32,102 nt of DNA, from contig JAQWHT010000114.1 in NCBI GenBank assembly GCA_029249225.1, positions 1 through 32,102 on the forward strand. The letters run 5' to 3'. A program made the translations under genes and the position numbers. The notes under the pieces were generated by a model. It searched no databases, was not told where the DNA came from, and saw only the letters and a list, made by a program, of their open reading frames with translations. Positions 1 to 6,219 of this stretch are shown piece by piece. Each line of letters starts with the position of its first letter. Position 1 is the stretch's first letter. The DNA comes from Flavobacteriaceae bacterium. Lineage in GTDB: Bacteria; Bacteroidota; Bacteroidia; Flavobacteriales; Flavobacteriaceae.

Positions 1-427
1 CAACTTCTGTCCCTTCTTCAAACTCTCCTCCTTCAGTTGAAACTGTTCCACCTTCACTTGTCGTAACAGTTAGAGTATATATCGGTATTAATTCGAATAA
101 TGCTTGATAGGTTTGATTAGAATTTAAGGTAACGGTTAGACTTTCACTTGTAGAACTATTTCCTTCCCAACCTGTAAATCTGTACCCTTCACTTGCAGAA
201 GCTGTAATAGTAACCTCAGACCCTTCATCATATGTACCTCCTTCAGAAGATACTGTACCTCCTTCTGCTGCTGATACACTTAAGGTATATTCAACTGGGT
301 CTGGTTCAGGTTCTGGTTGAGGTATTTGAACTACTGGTGCAACAGATTCTTCTTCTTCAGTAGAACAGCTAAAAACGATTATAAATGATAAAATACAAAT
401 GGATAATAAAGAAAAAGAGTATTTCAT
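1..427 (-). CDS. Surface lipoprotein with InlB-like repeats (partial, runs off the left edge)
   Basis: This is the N-terminal 142 codons of a minus-strand gene whose 3' part lies outside the window. The start ATG is at 425-427. The product opens with a lipoprotein signal peptide (hydrophobic run, then a Cys at about residue 21 in FSCSTEEEE). The acidic residues right after the Cys resemble the export signal described for surface lipoproteins of Flavobacteriia. A Pro/Glu linker (PQPEPEPDP) follows, then at least two copies of a roughly 70-residue beta-type repeat with the pattern YTLxVxxxEGGTVSxEGGxxxEGxEV and GYRFTGWEG. That pattern is typical of divergent InlB B-repeat domains (the Flg_new_2 or List-Bact-rpt kind), which act as stalks or adhesion modules. 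The head domain and true function cannot be seen. Confidence 0.85.
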   Translation of the reverse strand, partial: MKYSFSLLSICILSFIIVFSCSTEEEESVAPVVQIPQPEPEPDPVEYTLSVSAAEGGTVSSEGGTYDEGSEVTITASASEGYRFTGWEGNSSTSESLTVTLNSNQTYQALFELIPIYTLTVTTSEGGTVSTEGGEFEEGTEV

Positions 428-450
428 TTTTATGGTTTTGGTTAACAGCA

Positions 451-458
451 CTAATATA
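451..458 (-). promoter_or_regulatory. Possible -7 box for the lipoprotein gene
   Basis: On the minus strand this reads TATATTAG, one mismatch from the Bacteroidota -7 consensus TAnnTTTG, 24 bases before the lipoprotein ATG. The same octamer stands before the DUF2892 gene (735-742), and in both cases a copy of the direct repeat lies further upstream. No clear TTG -33 box is seen. Confidence 0.35.
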
Positions 459-468
459 CAAAATAGCC

Positions 469-505
469 CCTGAACTTAATGAAGAGGATATACCAATGAT
501 TTAAA
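469..505. repeat. Direct repeat copy 1
   Basis: The first 22 bases (469-490, beginning CCTGAACTTAATGAAGAGG) are identical to 779-800. After a variable stretch both copies continue with a conserved ATGATTT followed by A/G-rich bases. The copies are exactly 310 bases apart and in the same orientation. The end of this copy overlaps the stop codon of the DUF2892 gene. A third, degenerate copy lies at 1678-1708. Confidence 0.8.
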
Positions 506-707
506 CTTTACAAGTATTAGTTCCAAATAATCGGTAGATAACACATATACCTGAGAGAGCATTAAAAATTAAAACACCACCAACAATAGCTTGGGAAATT
601 GCAAATGGGTTATTTTGAAATACTAATGGTGCAGGCAATAAAAAAATGGCTACAATAAATCTAACAACTCTTTCAGCTGTATTTTGGTTTGTTTCAAAAA
701 ATTTCAT
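501..707 (-). CDS. DUF2892 (YgaP-like transmembrane domain) protein
   Basis: A 68-residue membrane protein. It has the layout of the DUF2892 family: a short N-terminal segment with conserved Asn and Arg residues (TNQNTAERVVRFIVA), two hydrophobic helices (about residues 15-30 and 37-58), and a C-terminal GxCxxYRLFGTNTC block with two Cys. The family is the membrane anchor found alone or fused to rhodanese domains, as in YgaP, and is often linked to sulfur handling. No rhodanese partner is visible here. Both ends of the gene are bordered by copies of the same direct repeat. The family call rests on pattern alone, and the exact role is unknown. Confidence 0.75.
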   Translation of the reverse strand: MKFFETNQNTAERVVRFIVAIFLLPAPLVFQNNPFAISQAIVGGVLIFNALSGICVIYRLFGTNTCKV

Positions 708-734
708 TTTAATTGATTTATGATTAATAAGCTA

Positions 735-742
735 CTAATATA
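735..742 (-). promoter_or_regulatory. Possible -7 box for the DUF2892 gene
   Basis: The minus strand reads TATATTAG 27 bases before the ATG at 707. This is the same one-mismatch version of TAnnTTTG that precedes the lipoprotein gene. Repeat copy 2 lies 37 bases further upstream. Confidence 0.35.
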
Positions 743-778
743 GAAAACTCTAAAATATCTCTAATCTGTGTGTTTCTT

Positions 779-815
779 CCTGAACTTAATGAAGAGGATA
801 AGTCGATGATTTGAA
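779..815. repeat. Direct repeat copy 2
   Basis: This is identical to copy 1 over its first 22 bases (779-800) and again over ATGATTT (807-813 against 497-503). The six or so bases between these blocks differ. It sits between the divergently transcribed DUF2892 and Bax-inhibitor-like genes. Confidence 0.8.
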
Positions 816-868
816 TATCAGGATTTAATATTTAATTTAAAGGTATATTCATTTTTTATATAAGGTAA

Positions 869-876
869 TATATTTG
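869..876 (+). promoter_or_regulatory. -7 box (TATATTTG) for the Bax-inhibitor-like gene
   Basis: A perfect TAnnTTTG match lies 24 bases before the ATG at 901. No TTG is present at the expected -33 position. The leader would be about 15-20 bases and shows no obvious ribosome binding site. Confidence 0.5.
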
Positions 877-900
877 TTGTCATTTTAATTTATACATATT

Positions 901-1638
901 ATGAGTGGGCATCTTTCCTTAAGATCAGGTAATCCTGTTCTGTCAAAAGAAACTTTTACAAATACAGTTTTATCATCTGATAAAATGACTATCGAAGGTA
1001 CAGTAAATAAAACCGCAATAAGTCTTTTACTTCTTGTAGGAACAGGTTATTTCACTTTTGATGTAATTAGCCCGGTTTTATTAATTGGAGCTGGAATAGG
1101 AGGGTTCATATTGGCTATTGTAACTATTTTTAAAAAAGAATGGGCACCAATAACTGTTCCACTTTATGCAATATTTGAAGGTGCTTTGCTAGGAGGTATT
1201 TCATATATGTATAATTCTTCATATAATGGGATAGTGACTAACGCCATCCTATTAACTGTAGGGATATTAGTTTCTTTATTGATTGCTTATAGATCGGGCT
1301 ATATAAAAGCAACAGAAAATTTTAAACTTGGAATATTTGCAGCTACAGGGGGTATAGCTATAGTTTATTTTGTGAACTTTATTATGGGATTTTTTGGGTC
1401 AGGCCTTGGGGTAATGAGTGTAAATAATGCTTCTCCTTTAAGTATTGGTTTTAGTATAGTTGTAGTAATAATCGCTTCCCTTAATCTAGTTTTGGATTTT
1501 GATTTTATAGAAGAAGGCGCTGAAAAAGGTGCTCCTAAGTATATGGAATGGTATGGAGCATTTGGTCTATTAGTAACCTTGATATGGTTATATCTGGAAA
1601 TATTAAGATTATTAGCAAAACTTAATTCTAGAAGATAA
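901..1638 (+). CDS. Bax inhibitor-1/YccA family membrane protein
   Basis: A 245-residue protein with about seven hydrophobic segments from residue 40 onward. The soluble N-terminus contains the SGNPVLS motif usual in the bacterial Bax-inhibitor-1-like family. The C-terminal part keeps the characteristic acidic helix pair (LDFDFIEEGAEKGAPKYMEW followed by YGAFGLLVTLIWLYLEILRL), where conserved Asp and Glu residues form the proposed pH-sensing site. Family members are multi-pass inner-membrane proteins linked to calcium leak or to protease modulation, but the bacterial role is not settled. The length is normal for the family. The gene stands alone, with its own -7 box, a repeat copy before it and a degenerate copy after it. 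Confidence 0.88.
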   Translation: MSGHLSLRSGNPVLSKETFTNTVLSSDKMTIEGTVNKTAISLLLLVGTGYFTFDVISPVLLIGAGIGGFILAIVTIFKKEWAPITVPLYAIFEGALLGGISYMYNSSYNGIVTNAILLTVGILVSLLIAYRSGYIKATENFKLGIFAATGGIAIVYFVNFIMGFFGSGLGVMSVNNASPLSIGFSIVVVIIASLNLVLDFDFIEEGAEKGAPKYMEWYGAFGLLVTLIWLYLEILRLLAKLNSRR

Positions 1639-1677
1639 TCTAAATAACCACTTAAATCATTTGTTCTCTACATATGA

Positions 1678-1708
1678 TTAAATGAAGAGTATATGCCTGT
1701 GGTTTAAA
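1678..1708. repeat. Degenerate copy 3 of the direct repeat
   Basis: Aligned without gaps to 475-505, 23 of 31 positions match. The shared blocks are AATGAAGAG, ATAT, CC and TTTAAA. Orientation is the same as copies 1 and 2. It lies just after the Bax-inhibitor-like gene, so that gene too is bordered by copies on both sides. Confidence 0.5.
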
Positions 1709-1740
1709 AGAAAACGCCACTAAAAGTAATTAGTGACGTT
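1701..1740 (-). terminator. Rho-independent terminator, minus strand
   Basis: An inverted repeat of 11-base arms (1713-1723 and 1730-1740, one mismatch, 6-base loop) is followed on the minus strand by TTTTCTTTT. It would end minus-strand transcripts coming from the remnant genes at 1768-2536. Confidence 0.6.
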
Positions 1741-1767
1741 AGTACTTAAAAATGTGCTTTGTTTAGT

Positions 1768-2078
1768 CTATTCTGTAAAGATGTCTTGTAATCTAATACT
1801 TTGGGAGGGTAAAACGCTATTAATGGTAGGGTTGTATGATTTTAAAGCTAAATAAAAAGACTCTATTGAAAACCCGAAAACTTCTTCAAAAAGCCCTTCT
1901 TTGGTGACATCTGTTCTACCTGATTTCCACCAATCATTAAATACTTTTTTAAATGCTTGAATTTCTGTATTTCCTTGCTTTTGTATTTACTAAACAATAA
2001 TTGATTATTAAAAAACTTTTTTTGGTTTATGTCTTTAATTGTCCAATGAATAGGATCTAAAAAACATTGAGTGCTACC
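1768..2078 (-). pseudogene. Frameshifted remnant of an unidentified gene
   Basis: Two minus-strand reading frames join into one protein-like sequence. The upstream frame (about 2078 to 1978) reads CFLDPIHWTIKDINQKKFF and onward with no start codon. The downstream frame (about 1986 to 1768) reads GNTEIQAFKKVFNDWWKSG, later EEVFGFSIESFYLAL, and ends at a TAG (1768-1770). An in-frame TAA (1987-1989) closes the second frame upstream, so a frameshift near 1975-1985 is the simplest explanation. The layout (DPxHW, then a short helical tail with FxxVFG and SFYLAL) faintly recalls the C-terminal end of RteC-type regulators of Bacteroidota mobile elements, but the match is too weak to name. It is followed by a terminator and preceded by two small genes that look element-derived. 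Confidence 0.5.
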
Positions 2079-2087
2079 TTAGGCTTT

Positions 2088-2222
2088 TTAATTTTTAGCT
2101 TTTCGTGTCTTCAAAGTAACAAGTGCTAAATATTCTTCCAAAAGCATATTCCGCTTATGAGCTTCTTCTAGCAATTCTCTTTTTCTTTTTGAACTAAGCT
2201 TAATGCAAACCTCATTTTTCAT
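2088..2222 (-). CDS. Small basic protein, possible ribbon-helix-helix type
   Basis: A 44-residue protein opening MKNEVCIKLSSKRKRELLEE. It has a short potential beta strand (EVCIKLS), a basic patch, then a predicted helix and a second helix around NMLLEEYLALVTLK. That strand-helix-helix order with hydrophilic surfaces is how Arc/MetJ ribbon-helix-helix DNA-binding proteins or antitoxins look, but at this length the assignment is only a suggestion. It lies between the 98-residue gene at 2240 and the broken gene at 1768, all on the minus strand, so the three were probably one transcript from an integrated element. No toxin partner is visible. Confidence 0.45.
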   Translation of the reverse strand: MKNEVCIKLSSKRKRELLEEAHKRNMLLEEYLALVTLKTRKAKN

Positions 2223-2239
2223 AGTTTATATTTTTTTGG

Positions 2240-2536
2240 TTAAAAGATTCTAACATTATTCTCTTTTTCATATTCTCTAACTTTATTTAGCCTCTCTAGC
2301 TCGTCACTAGTTTTAACTATATTGATTTGAATGTCAGATGGCTCATCAACATATTGTTCATTTGTTAGCTTTAGCCTAGGAATCGAATATTGCAAGGCTA
2401 TTTGTAGCAGCTTAATCTTTTGATTGTTATTTAGCAGCTCTATGTCTATCCCTACTATTATACCATCTATCAGCTCTTGAAGTTGCTGCTTAATCTTTGC
2501 TGTTACTTTGTTTGGCACTCCTGCTATTCTACCCAT
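2240..2536 (-). CDS. Uncharacterised mobile-element-type protein (GRxxGxxNK N-terminus)
   Basis: A 98-residue protein with no signal peptide or membrane segment. The N-terminus, MGRIAGVPNKVTAKIKQQLQ, is the basic GRxxGxxNKxT leader seen on many small phage- or island-borne proteins of Flavobacteriia. A predicted amphipathic helix follows (QELIDGIIVGIDIELL), then QYSIPRLK and an acidic, charged tail (SDELERLNKVREYEKENN). Similar proteins are usually found next to integrases or in prophages, and their function is unknown. Here no integrase survives. It starts at an ATG (2534-2536) and ends 17 bases before the next small gene, suggesting co-transcription. A role in DNA binding or packaging is possible but not shown by the sequence. 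Confidence 0.6.
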   Translation of the reverse strand: MGRIAGVPNKVTAKIKQQLQELIDGIIVGIDIELLNNNQKIKLLQIALQYSIPRLKLTNEQYVDEPSDIQINIVKTSDELERLNKVREYEKENNVRIF

Positions 2537-3051
2537 ATTTTGTGTACTTTTTGTTAATAGCTATTATATATTATAACTGCTTTATCTTAGATCTTTCAGG
2601 ACTAGATATACCTCCCCTAAGGGAGGAACTGGCTTTCTAAAAACTGCTTCACCTTGAGTCTCACAATCCTAGATGTTTTAGCTACTACTATAGAACATTG
2701 CTAAAACTTGAGAGTACTTATCACATCTATAGTTCGTGACCCTGCAAGGCGTCTCTCCTGTACCTACCCGTCTTGCCTTTTGCCTTTTGTACAAGACTGT
2801 TATTAAACATTAGCCCAAAGTATTTAGCCAAAAACTAATGCGTTTTTCCCCTGATTTTTAAGGTTCCATACTTATATTACGTTTGTGGATTCTTTTTTTG
2901 CATTTTTAAAAATTTTCTAAAAAACACTTATGCTGACTTAAGGGCATCAATCTGGCTAAACAGCATAAATAACTAGAGGATATTTGAAGGTGGTAAGATT
3001 AGTGCCAAATAAGTGCCAAGAAATTGACTAACTTTATACTAAACTTAATTG
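2537..3051. other. Gene-free stretch between element remnants and the tRNA
   Basis: No convincing reading frame is present on either strand. Visible structures are a 6-base hairpin CCTCCC-ctaa-GGGAGG (2611-2626) and an inverted repeat GTTTTAGC/GCTAAAAC with a 17-base gap (2675-2682 and 2700-2707). A short tandem echo AGTGCCAA...AAGTGCCAA lies near 3000-3021. The patch around 2730-2790 is more GC-rich than its surroundings. This is where an integrase gene and attachment site would be expected, but neither is recognisable. Confidence 0.5.
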
Positions 3052-3053
3052 TA

Positions 3054-3083
3054 AAGAAAAACCCCTCGATAACTCGAAGGGCT
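3054..3083 (-). terminator. Rho-independent terminator downstream of the tRNA
   Basis: The minus strand forms an 8-base stem (3074-3081 pairing with 3062-3069, one G-T pair, 4-base loop) followed by TTTTTCTTT. It lies about 30 bases beyond the 3' end of the CAT tRNA and would terminate its transcript. A smaller hairpin GAGC-ttgc-GCTC (3094-3105) stands between them. Confidence 0.75.
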
Positions 3084-3114
3084 TGTCTTGGTTGAGCTTG
3101 CGCTCTTTTTTTGT

Positions 3115-3191
3115 TGGTGGTCCCACCTGGGCTCGAACCAGGGACCAACTGATTATGAGTCAGCTACTCTAACCAACTGAGCTATAGGACC
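3115..3191 (-). tRNA. tRNA with anticodon CAT (tRNA-Met, or tRNA-Ile2)
   Basis: It folds as a full 77-base cloverleaf including an encoded CCA. The acceptor arm GGTCCTA pairs with TGGGACC, the D arm contains GCTCAGTTGGTTA, the anticodon loop is CTCATAA, and the T arm is CCTGG-TTCGAGC-CCAGG. The anticodon is CAT. A7-type pairing at the acceptor end rules out an initiator-like mismatch, so this is either elongator tRNA-Met or the lysidine-modified tRNA-Ile that reads ATA. The sequence alone does not settle which. It has its own promoter and terminator. Confidence 0.92.
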
Positions 3192-3201
3192 TGTTTGTGA
3201 T

Positions 3202-3210
3202 GCAAATATA
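3202..3210 (-). promoter_or_regulatory. -7 box (TATATTTGC) for the CAT tRNA
   Basis: A perfect TAnnTTTG on the minus strand, with the final G 11 bases before the mature tRNA 5' end. Confidence 0.65.
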
Positions 3211-3432
3211 GACAAACCTTAAAAAAACACAGAGTCTTTTTTAGAAGTTTTGAACCTGATGCTAAAAGGATAACCGCATATAAATTTAGCATGTTCAAAT
3301 AATTAATGTTTGGTCTTTTATTCCTAATTCTTACTGTTATTGGTTTGCACTTAGAACAATGCGTCACGAATGATTATATAAGGTTTGTTTTTCAACTCCC
3401 CGCTTATTTATATATTTATGAAAACTATATCT

Positions 3433-3630
3433 ATGAATTCTAATACACGTCTTTTTATTAGCATTTTGCTGTCTGTAGAAATTTTTCTACTTCTACTTGG
3501 AATTGAAATCCACCATAATAATACTTTATCAAAAGCTCTTGTAGAACGAAGAATAAACAAGACTGTTGTCGGAGATTTAGATTTTTTTTTAATGTGGAGA
3601 TTCAAAATTTTAACTCTAAAAGATAAATGA
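3433..3630 (+). pseudogene. Internally deleted paralogue of the downstream membrane-anchored protein
   Basis: This is a 65-codon frame starting at ATG 3433; earlier in-frame starts at 3418 (ATG) and 3385 (TTG) are possible. Its first half aligns with the N-terminus of the next gene: the membrane helix is followed by LLGIEIHHNNTLSKALVERR here and FLGLEVNQSNTLAKASIRQS there. Its last 13 residues, FLMWRFKILTLKD, then align with FMVVRFQTFNFRD, which lies about 40 residues further on in the paralogue. The middle block is missing and the C-terminal third is absent, so the copy is probably non-functional or reduced to a membrane peptide. Its stop overlaps the start of the intact copy (ATGATGA), as in a translationally coupled pair. 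Confidence 0.6.
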
Positions 3631-4088
3631 TGAGTAAAAATTTTCGGTTTATCATTGAAATCGTAAGCGCTTGTGCAATTGTAGTTTCATTAGTTTTTCT
3701 AGGGCTCGAGGTGAATCAAAGTAATACACTCGCCAAAGCCTCAATTAGACAATCCCTAAACGAAACGGATATGGAAATCTATCAAATGCAAATGGACAAA
3801 GGCATCATTACAAAAGCTTTATACAAAATTGAAAAAAACATCCCCATAGATGATTATGAAGAATTTATGGTTGTCCGGTTTCAAACATTCAATTTTAGAG
3901 ATTTTGACAATTCGTATTATCAATACAGAATTGGTCTTTTTGATGAAAATAATTGGCTCGCATACGAACGGCTAATTAAAGCCCTTCTCAAAGACGAATA
4001 CGTTCAAATAATGCTGGAAAAGGAGATGTCAAATTTCAGTACAGAATTTCAAACAGAATTAAAATCCCTTCTTAAAGAATTGAATTAA
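3627..4088 (+). CDS. Uncharacterised protein with one N-terminal membrane helix
   Basis: A 153-residue protein. Residues 9-28 form a hydrophobic helix (IIEIVSACAIVVSLVFLGLE) followed by VNQSNTLAKASIRQSLNE, then a soluble, mostly helical domain rich in Glu, Lys, Phe and Tyr. The pattern of one membrane anchor, then an (E/V)xQSNxxAxAS motif and a helical cytoplasmic domain, occurs in many unnamed proteins of marine bacteria, with no known function. The start may be 3627 or 3630 (two adjacent ATGs). The first overlaps the stop of the truncated paralogue upstream, pointing to a tandem duplication. No enzyme motif or metal site is visible. Confidence 0.7.
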   Translation: MMSKNFRFIIEIVSACAIVVSLVFLGLEVNQSNTLAKASIRQSLNETDMEIYQMQMDKGIITKALYKIEKNIPIDDYEEFMVVRFQTFNFRDFDNSYYQYRIGLFDENNWLAYERLIKALLKDEYVQIMLEKEMSNFSTEFQTELKSLLKELN

Positions 4089-4259
4089 TTCTGAACATTG
4101 TACTCAACGAAACCTTAAATTAGTCTTAAGGATTCAAAACATTTCAGTTCAGAATAGTTATTAAAATTAAGCAGAAATTTTGATTATAAATTTGTTCCTG
4201 TTCGGAATAGAATTCAAGGTAAGGAGTGGTCGACCTAACCCTTTTAGTTCTGTTTTAAA

Positions 4260-4427
4260 ATGAAAAATTTAATCTTTGTGCTCTTAATAAGCTTCTGCGC
4301 CAATGCACAATTAGAGTATTTATCCCATGAAGAATTAGAACAAAAAATTCAACTAGACACTAAAGTTCAATTGAGTAAAAACAAAATCCGATTTTGGAAA
4401 AAACCCTTAATCACTAAACATCAATAA
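4260..4427 (+). CDS. Short secreted peptide, possibly a truncated gene
   Basis: A 55-codon frame starting ATG at 4260. It begins with a clear signal peptide (MKNLIFVLLISFCANAQ, predicted cleavage after ANA) and is followed by about 38 mostly charged residues (LEYLSHEELEQKIQLDTKVQ, later NKIRFWKKP). No domain can be named, and the mature part is short enough that this could be the 5' end of a once longer gene. It lies in a region of decayed genes. The signal peptide is the main reason to think it is or was real. Confidence 0.4.
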   Translation: MKNLIFVLLISFCANAQLEYLSHEELEQKIQLDTKVQLSKNKIRFWKKPLITKHQ

Positions 4428-4562
4428 TATCCTTGTCGCAAAATCAAGAGTGCCCCGGGAACTAAAATATGCACAAAGAAAATTCACTATTTATTTTAAC
4501 CTAACTTCCTTAATTTCTCTTGGGTTAATTTGATTTTGTATTTTAGAACAAGCCTAGAGCCA

Positions 4563-5099
4563 ATGAAAAAAATTTACTTATTACTTCTTTTTACCCTCTG
4601 AGTTAGTGCCGTCTTTCTTTTTCTTCTGCCTTCAGAAACAAAGCAAATATATGATCTAACAAAAAAAGAAAAAATAAGTACTAAGATTGCTAACGATATT
4701 TTTATTCCAAGCAATATTAATAACAAGGTTTTATTTTTTCTAGATCAAATAAAAAAGAAAAATTCCCATTTCCGATCTTACGACATACGTCTCACCCAAA
4801 AAAATGTTTTTACCACCTCTGAAGATTGGCGGTTTTTTGGGGAAAATTTAGATCAAATTGGTCCTATCCGTATTACCATTCAAATTTCTGAGGGCACATA
4901 TAAGTTCTTTTCAGAATACTTGTTAAATAGAAATTTAACCTTACCCCTTTCCGTAGGTTCAGGAAAAGGATTGTACGACTGCCTAAATAATTGTTTTGAA
5001 GGAATAAATTATGAATCACTAGAGCGTGCCCCTAGATGCGATTGTACAACTTGGTTTTCAAGCCCAAATTTAATAAACTATGAGAAAAAGAACTTTTAA
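4563..5099 (+). pseudogene. Gene interrupted by an in-frame TGA at codon 13
   Basis: From ATG 4563 the frame reads MKKIYLLLLFTL, a stop (TGA, 4599-4601), then 165 further open codons to a TAA at 5097. The N-terminus is a signal or membrane segment split by the TGA (LLLLFTL-stop-VSAVFLFLLPS). The body contains EDWRFFGENLDQIGPIRITI and a Cys-rich patch (YDCLNNCFEGINYES, RCDCTTWFSS) that could bind metal or form disulfides. I do not recognise the family. No ATG, GTG or TTG start lies close after the TGA, so restart is unlikely. The long open frame suggests a recent nonsense mutation, or a sequencing error in a living gene. Confidence 0.55.
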
Positions 5100-5397
5100 T
5101 TTAAAATCCCTCATGTTGCCCATATGGTTTAATCTTGATTTCATTGAGATGATTAAGAATATAGAAAAGTGGTAATTCTTATTTAATTAAGAACCCTAGG
5201 GAGTGCTTAATGTATAGCAATCTATCCAAATAAAAGAGGGCCGTCTGCGATCTTGGCTCGTTTGTTCAGCTCATCATCGACTCTAAAAACAGCCATTAGA
5301 TAAATTGAAAAACCAATTGCAACGACCTATTAAAATACCCTTCCAAGGGCTCCCATCTTTTATTTCTTACATAGAACCCTTACCTTTGTTAAAAAAA
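5100..5397. other. Region with no supported gene before the DUF2452 gene
   Basis: It holds a small perfect hairpin (TTCTTA-tttaat-TAAGAA, 5176-5193) and an adjoining palindrome CCCTAGGG (5194-5201). A more GC-rich patch follows at 5238-5295, in which the minus strand has a 24-codon frame (MAVFRVDDELNKRAK) that stops at once. Nothing here is strong enough to call a gene. The in-frame extension of the next gene back to TTG 5305 is discussed in that entry. Confidence 0.4.
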
Positions 5398-5790
5398 ATG
5401 AAGAAGAAGCCAGACGGAGTAGTGTGGGACGAAACACACGAAACCTATTTTGCAAAGCTATTGCCTTACGCAAGTAATTTGAGTGGACCAATAATAGAAA
5501 TCCCCAATGTAGATTCTTTCAAAAAAAAAGGGGTAGATCGGGTTTCTAAACAATTCCAAGCAGAACTAAAAGACCTTCAAGATCGAATTAAATCATTTGT
5601 TACTCTCGCTTCTGAAACACAAAAAGTCTACGAAGCCCACTTTAAATTTGAACCTATAGTAGGAGAAATATACCATTTATATCAGGGCAAAGATCAAACT
5701 TTTCTTTCCTTAGTAGAGCCATCAGAATGGAACAAAGAACACTTGGGTAGTTTTCGTTTGAACAGTGATTTTAAGTGGGAACGTCAATAA
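5398..5790 (+). CDS. DUF2452 domain-containing protein
   Basis: A soluble protein of 130 residues from the ATG at 5398. The DUF2452 signature is plain: KKPDGVVWDETHETYFAKLL near the N-terminus, PYASNLSGPIIEIPN, a long charged helix, then PIVGEIYHLYQGKD and FLSLVEPSEW at the end. The family is common in Bacteroidota and has no assigned function. The frame remains open upstream to a TTG at 5305 (161 residues), but family members normally begin just before KKPD, so the ATG is preferred. It is followed after 27 bases by rbfA and the FtsX-type permease, so it probably belongs to the same operon. Confidence 0.8.
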   Translation: MKKKPDGVVWDETHETYFAKLLPYASNLSGPIIEIPNVDSFKKKGVDRVSKQFQAELKDLQDRIKSFVTLASETQKVYEAHFKFEPIVGEIYHLYQGKDQTFLSLVEPSEWNKEHLGSFRLNSDFKWERQ

Positions 5791-5817
5791 GCTCTTTTTT
5801 CTCCTTATTTTAGTTGT

Positions 5818-6219
5818 ATGAAGAAACCAGAAACAGCCCGTCAACAAAAGATTAATACTGTGTTGCAACAAGAAGTTGCAACCTTACTACAACAAGCTCT
5901 CAGAGAAGGCTCTGTTAAAAACCTTTTGGTCTCTGTTACTAAGGTAAGGGTTACATCAGATTTATCCACTGCAAAAATTTACCTAAGTATTTTTCCTGCA
6001 AAAGATGCTACTGCTTATTTAGATACCCTTCAGGAGAATAGTTATCAACTCCGGCATGACTTAGCTCAAAAAATGAAAAATCAATTGCGAAGAGTTCCTG
6101 ACCTTCATTTCTATCTTGATGACTCTTTGGATTATATCCAAGGTATAGAGCAAGAGCTTAGTAAGGGGGTTAATCCTCTAAAAAATCCGGAGACACTAGC
6201 CTCCAGACAAAAAAAATAA
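5818..6219 (+). CDS. rbfA: Ribosome-binding factor A
   Basis: RbfA binds the 30S subunit near helix 1 of 16S rRNA and helps its late maturation, especially in the cold. The 133-residue product has the expected N-terminus (RQQKINTVLQQEVATLLQQ), the KH-type core with VSVTKVRVTSDLSTAKIYLS, and the closing RRVPDLHFYLDDSLDYIQGI, all hallmarks of the family. Length is normal. It starts at an ATG 27 bases after the DUF2452 stop and is followed after 17 bases by an ABC permease gene, an order often found in Flavobacteriia, so co-transcription is likely. Confidence 0.95.
   Translation: MKKPETARQQKINTVLQQEVATLLQQALREGSVKNLLVSVTKVRVTSDLSTAKIYLSIFPAKDATAYLDTLQENSYQLRHDLAQKMKNQLRRVPDLHFYLDDSLDYIQGIEQELSKGVNPLKNPETLASRQKK

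Follow-up and report, generated by a model that had tools for sequence, protein, structure and literature searches.

Gene cassette arrays in Flavobacteriales whose repeats match the terminal codons of a tyrosine recombinase gene

Results

Repeats and genes at the locus

The window analyzed here covers the initial 32,102 bases of a contig of 101 kb in a 2.09-Mb Flavobacteriaceae draft genome of 133 contigs. Near its start, a repeat occurs three times on the same strand, at 469-505, 779-815 and 1672-1708 in a 37-base comparison; the first two copies are 86% identical over the 37 bases, and the identity of the third is 68%. The original prediction of three same-direction copies near two genes was thus borne out, the third copy being rescued by a weight matrix (13.2 bits, control 0), although its start moves from the predicted 1678 to 1672 once it is placed in register. 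The features of this region are as follows.

2..427, minus strand: lipoprotein-like gene with InlB-type repeats, 5' portion only (PF18998, E 1.1e-20)
469..504, plus strand: putative recombination site, copy 1 (56.4 bits, zero control sites; predicted span 469-505)
501..707, minus strand: YgaP-like TM/DUF2892-type gene, cargo of a 310-base cassette (PF11127, E 5e-14)
708..778, minus strand: shared leader with a promoter-like TATATTAG box and a TTAATCATAAATC element (putative promoter, from the leader listing)
779..814, plus strand: putative recombination site, copy 2 (51.5 bits; predicted span 779-815)
901..1638, plus strand: Bax inhibitor 1-like gene (BaxI_1), cargo of an 893-base cassette (PF12811, E 2.5e-76)
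1672..1707, plus strand: putative recombination site, copy 3, degenerate (13.2 bits; no control score reached 8)
3115..3191, minus strand: tRNA-Met adjoining the array (array beside the tRNA in 3 of 11 genomes with a tRNA found near rbfA)

The weight matrix covers 36 positions and was built from 137 copies with the consensus CCTGAACTTAATGAAGAGGATATGCCGATGATTTAA; scores of at least 8 bits were counted as sites. A scan of both strands of 43 loci (554 kb), most of them chosen for holding repeat copies, returned 210 sites, against 0 in the same DNA reversed, and because of this separation we regard the degenerate third copy as real. Its right flank (AAAAGAAAACGCCACTAAA...) is similar to the flanks of copies in two other genomes (G008, L117; G015, L120). 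By eye, the stretch to the right of this copy (1750-2000) resembles a decayed remnant of a peptidase-like gene found at the other end of the contig.

The units holding the DUF2892 and Bax-inhibitor genes are two cassettes of the array system described below. The DUF2892 cassette shares 95.3% identity with one in G024 (L128:11385), and the Bax-inhibitor cassette shares 91.6% with one in G025 (L130:4039) and 84.3% with one in G023 (L126:9358). At the protein level, the Bax inhibitor shows at most 87% identity among the matches listed, of which the top ones come mostly from metagenome or single-cell Flavobacteriaceae and Bacteroidetes, one being labelled MS024-2A. When 80 Bax-inhibitor loci from named genomes were scanned without a control, sites of at least 6 bits appeared only in L009 and L015 (5 and 3 sites, 8.1-29.2 bits). 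The leader at 708..778 contains the single occurrence of the TTAANCATAAATC element in the whole window.

The gene at 2..427 is probably the cassette upstream of copy 1, truncated by the contig start; the protein listing shows similar cassettes in G022, G025, G027 and G037. Both ends of the 101-kb contig lie within arrays (L005:2899-4246, corresponding to G000:C74:99898-101245, and window 2-427), and both fall in similar InlB-repeat lipoprotein genes. The assembly probably broke at a repeated InlB-lipoprotein cassette.

On the right, the array adjoins tRNA-Met. In a survey of rbfA and tRNA-Met across 17 loci, the tRNA was found in 11 and an array adjoined it in 3 of these 11, several of the remaining stretches being too short to exclude an array. 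From tRNA-Met to rbfA (3191-5818 in the window), the spacing ranges from <1 kb to >8 kb across genomes of the genus; therefore, the far side of the tRNA is variable too. Rfam models applied to positions 1-4000 matched this tRNA, with one further match under the gathering score and antisense to it. A 98-residue protein without a Pfam match is encoded at 2240-2536; small proteins resembling it by eye lie near recombinases in L199, L200 and L204, and one at 42% identity lies in L282.

The repeat forms arrays of one-gene cassettes across the genus

The search for further copies in the genome and its relatives that the original prediction proposed found them in both. Within the genome itself, four copies were recovered at up to 3 mismatches to 22 bases (C74:469, 779 and 99898; C16:11072; control 0), together with a further match at C60:649 with 2 mismatches. 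At up to 2 mismatches to TGAACTTAATGAAGAGGATA, the repeat is present in 33 of the genus's 38 genomes, the window's own among them, with as many as 20 copies in a single genome; the reversed pattern at the same stringency had no match in any of the 38; with three mismatches allowed, the control gave 0-3 matches per genome in seven genomes.

Across the 43 loci, the sites fall into 28 runs of at least three copies, the longest comprising 13, and 151 of 160 pairs of neighbouring copies within 3.5 kb are on the same strand. The 149 same-strand intervals of 150-3500 bases between neighbouring sites (median 884 bases) make up arrays in which each cassette comprises one gene and one site. In 134 of the 147 cassettes with an ORF of at least 60 residues, the longest ORF runs antisense to the site and so faces the recombinase side; the Bax-inhibitor gene of the window belongs to the minority pointing away.

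Cargo is diverse, the 149 cassettes falling into 134 sequence clusters. Pfam searches at E 0.001 assigned 48 families among the 147 cassette proteins, most commonly InlB-type repeats (6), SnoaL_2 (6), Beta-lactamase (5) and BaxI_1 (3). Exported or membrane-like N termini were called, on a crude criterion of hydrophobicity, in 121/147 cassette proteins versus 7/25 other ORFs of the window. None of the 147 matched an anti-phage model in PADLOC at E 0.001. Copies 1 and 2 have promoter-like boxes next to them, and similar leaders accompany many other copies; when the 134 cassettes with an antisense ORF were compared with three crude leader motifs, 74 matched one or more and 60 had no match.

The repeat coincides with the 3' end of a tyrosine recombinase gene

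The consensus repeat translates as P-E-L-N-E-E-D-M-P-M-I-stop; several arrays contain or adjoin a tyrosine recombinase gene, and by sequence comparison the repeat corresponds to the final 11 codons of this gene with their stop. In G024 and G025, a long open frame terminates in ...GHSSINVSLTYLR(A/G)LE(V/I)-PELNEEDMPMI, and its final 36 bases form the initial repeat of the array. Membership of the tyrosine recombinase superfamily is indicated by PF00589, which scored above its cut-off in all four recombinases searched. Residues R217, K245, R308, H331 and Y340, to which we presumptively assign catalytic roles from motifs of the superfamily, are invariant in 15 of 15 aligned recombinases, and the usual first His of box II is presumably replaced by Tyr305. 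Among solved chains, the recombinase profile matched only 4a8e, an Xer-like recombinase (E 3.5e-10, profile positions 128-331).

Relatives of this recombinase were detected at E 1e-3 in 16 of 38 genomes of the genus, five of them near full length and the rest fragments, several comprising only 20-56 C-terminal residues; these genomes are incomplete, and their contigs often break in arrays. Wider surveys recovered relatives in 18/397 genomes and 14/237 genera of the family (E 1e-20), 21/395 genomes and 8/109 genera of the order (E 1e-30) and 2/395 genomes of the phylum (E 1e-20). The window's own incomplete genome gave no recombinase at the 1e-3, 1e-20 or 1e-30 threshold. Phage and plasmid records yielded only partial relatives, at 26% identity, in two records of a single phage and in one plasmid. 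A phage origin was rejected: nine pattern matches were found in viral contigs, no recombinase relative was confirmed, and exact patterns of both repeat types had no match in viral contigs.

Across 15 aligned recombinases, Met354-Pro355 is invariant and the residues beyond it vary in sequence and length, as expected if each insertion supplies a new tail. Among 199 copies chosen by their first 27 bases alone, 150 have codon 12 as the earliest stop in frame; where TAA is changed at a single base (78 cases), one of the two alternative stop codons results in 51. The copies share descent and so are not independent. Five recombinases, four from the genus of the window and one from another, are identical over their last 33 coding bases, and outside the last 12 codons nine of their ten pairs are 47-53% identical and the tenth 86%. 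The recombinase of G377 is 90% identical to that of G025, but its gene ends in the other repeat type. Two recombinases (L206:10632-11672 and L211:8913-9953) differ from the others in their N-terminal part but have a closely similar catalytic part, a pattern that exchange of the N-terminal domain would produce.

The repeat type follows the recombinase

Each of 21 recombinase loci was scanned for extra copies of the last 36 bases of its own recombinase gene at up to 12 mismatches. Ten held such a copy, against 0 in 21 for the reversed control; L199 and L169 have weak ones, with 10 and 12 of the 36 bases mismatched, and the extra copies of L205 and L207 sit on the opposite strand. In the 11 loci without a further copy, at least four genes (L201, L203, L209 and L210) have a longer or cut tail, so that the last 36 bases are not the site, and some others end near a contig end. 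A change of repeat type is seen in a second genus, g137 (G173 and G360), where the recombinase gene ends in ...TTTAAAAGAAGAAGATATGCCTATGGTTTAG or nearly so and the arrays repeat that sequence. Scanning 96 kb of this genus gave 30 cognate sites (control 0), with all 19 neighbouring pairs on one strand; when 3 mismatches were tolerated, the repeat gave 19 matches in one genome and 15 in the other, and 13 of 18 cassettes have their longest ORF antisense to the site.

Four further families of the order yielded an extra cognate copy in 7 of 16 scanned loci, with one control match in one locus. Several of these copies retain additional C-terminal codons of the recombinase and may represent gene remnants. 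The scan covered loci whose recombinase ends fit its motif, which those of the distant phylum-level relatives G777 and G433 and of locus L268 did not.

Single cassettes are shared between genomes, and homology switches inside the site

We identified 17 homologous cassette pairs covering at least 60% of both members, all of them between genomes. Wherever the flanks of shared cassettes could be compared, the neighbours were different (22 of 22). With a single gene, rbfA, as the yardstick for genome relatedness, applied to 8 of the 17 pairs, the cassettes are 88.3-99.6% identical and rbfA 62.4-72.2% in seven, which at the level of sequence documents the transfer of single repeat-bounded cassettes. 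The eighth pair joins two close relatives, G028 and G036 (cassettes 98.9%, rbfA 97.3%). These genomes share two cassettes in opposite order; one of the two is only 91% identical, below rbfA, its far site in G036 is sub-threshold, and it may not represent a simple move. G028 also carries about 4.7 kb of extra DNA between a gene and a tRNA-like sequence, comprising a recombinase gene-end remnant and a run of four sites. At the matching place, G036 has a short gap, with the recombinase just beyond the tRNA-like sequence, which was called by eye.

In side-by-side comparison of 14 pairs, the flanks diverge beyond the shared cassette, and homology switches within the site. For the closest pairs the switch falls around positions 17-27 of 36, the map being blurred by mismatches outside the site center; we infer a crossover near that center (GATATGCCGA). 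The check for repeat-bounded ends of differences between genomes that the original prediction proposed was positive, both in the switch of homology within the site and in the changed cassette order.

Proposed mechanism

The repeats are most probably recombination sites of an integron-like cassette system, with the recombinase gene's own 3' end as the integration site; our confidence is slightly tempered because the cognate-copy test was positive in only 10/21 and 7/16 loci. In this pathway, a tyrosine recombinase of a lineage found in Flavobacteriales would recombine sites about 36 bases long, its own gene supplying one of them through its final 11 codons and stop. A cassette in circular form, with one gene and a copy of the site, would cross over near the site center, around GATATGCCGA, whereupon the recombinase gene would be rebuilt with a tail and stop codon from the cassette, leaving the cassette between two sites. 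Repeated insertion would produce same-strand arrays, and excision followed by re-insertion would shift single genes within and between genomes. Many cassettes bear a promoter-like leader beside the site, with the gene usually reading back toward the recombinase side. This enzyme as the agent, the circular intermediate, the exact crossover point and promoter activity of the leaders are the presumed elements of the model.

Relation to integrons, suicidal integrases and Xer systems

Integrons share with this system a tyrosine recombinase, one-gene cassette arrays, same-direction sites, diverse cargo and cassettes that stand in different company across genomes. One-gene cassettes in same-strand arrays with an adjoining tyrosine recombinase would also be expected of classical integrons, with IntI and attC sites, that are unrecognised or decayed, but this is very improbable here. 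All four recombinases fall far below the TIGR02249 cut-off for IntI-type integrases (28.3, 24.0, 18.6 and 17.1 bits, cut-off 265). The 40 of 149 sites that were folded showed no excess folding (mean fold z -0.15, -0.08 and -0.13), and the attC boxes GTTRRRY and RYYYAAC occur in 0/149 and 4/149 sites. No attI lies beside the recombinase gene; the platform site overlaps the 3' end of that gene and is an analogue of attI, not attI by sequence. Integron membership was rejected on IntI score and site folding. The systems differ in the site, here about 36 bases without the attC fold or boxes, and in the cargo, here directed toward the recombinase side (134/147) with a promoter-like leader in many cassettes, whereas most integron cassettes are without promoters (PMC9024848).

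An attachment site within the integrase gene is also found in archaeal suicidal integrases of the SSV, pTN3 and pT26-2 types, according to a review (PMC8371274) that terms gene-disrupting recombinases exclusively archaeal. The present recombinases share that placement; however, suicidal integrases split their own gene, whereas here the site occupies the last codons and the gene is whole, open up to the site with the array behind it (for example in L128 and L130). The suicidal-integrase domain PF16795 was absent among Pfam matches up to E 1 in all four recombinases. On insertion, the recombinase gene should be rebuilt rather than split.

The original prediction compared the repeats with Xer/dif-like modules. 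Gene-moving modules recombined by Xer proteins are known as pdif modules, and if the repeats were sites of the chromosomal XerC/XerD, the genes would be moved as by pdif. Conserved arms round a variable center are indeed shared with dif and pdif, and the recombinase is weakly similar to Xer models and to the archaeal Xer structure 4a8e, a distant likeness of the catalytic domain; in 4a8e, only the core-binding and catalytic part matches, and the rest of the recombinase profile is uncovered. This reading also has a very low probability, since the recombinase is dedicated, its site lies in its own gene as the end of that gene, and models of XerC, XerD and other Xer proteins gave 15-48 bits (one 11) against cut-offs of 178-371. 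The predicted recombination module was right in kind, with more copies and repeat-bounded differences between genomes, but the Xer/dif label is not supported.

Alternative origins of the arrays

An unlikely but less remote alternative is that cassettes spread by homologous recombination between repeats, or through another enzyme, the recombinase gene end being only the historical source of the repeat. The 36-base repeats and partly shared leaders would permit homologous exchange, most array-bearing genomes of the genus have no full-length recombinase in the assembly, and exchange could also account for identical gene ends in recombinases about 50% identical as proteins. Such spread accords poorly, however, with a repeat type that tracks the recombinase end in a second genus, with the same-strand order of 151/160 pairs and with protein invariance that stops sharply at the presumed crossover. 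The original prediction had alternatively viewed the repeat as a shared operator. Promoter-like boxes do lie next to copies 1 and 2, as they do next to many others, but a shared operator for a regulator of the flanked genes is hardly credible for 134 clusters among 149 cassettes, for a repeat that is a gene end whose type follows the recombinase, and for a boundary at which homology between genomes breaks.

Discussion

There is strong comparative evidence, drawn from sequence, that the system behind these repeats functions like an integron. We consider it likely that cassette capture independent of integrons operates across several Flavobacteriales families, in which the last codons of the recombinase would serve as the site and each cassette would rewrite the tail, supply the stop, bring a promoter and mostly face the recombinase. 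All three defining parts of an integron differ in this system; if any recombinase-built cassette array is counted as one kind, it would be a variant of that kind. No description of it was found among the listings and abstracts of openly licensed PMC papers that were searched.

The integron is the textbook means by which bacteria gather single genes. If the proposed model is correct, a second platform, with another recombinase, another kind of site and mostly opposite gene orientation, would mean that cassette arrays arose more than once. It would also provide a recombinase whose DNA site is its own protein tail, tying site choice to enzyme sequence, and would explain part of the gene turnover in these small-genome bacteria.
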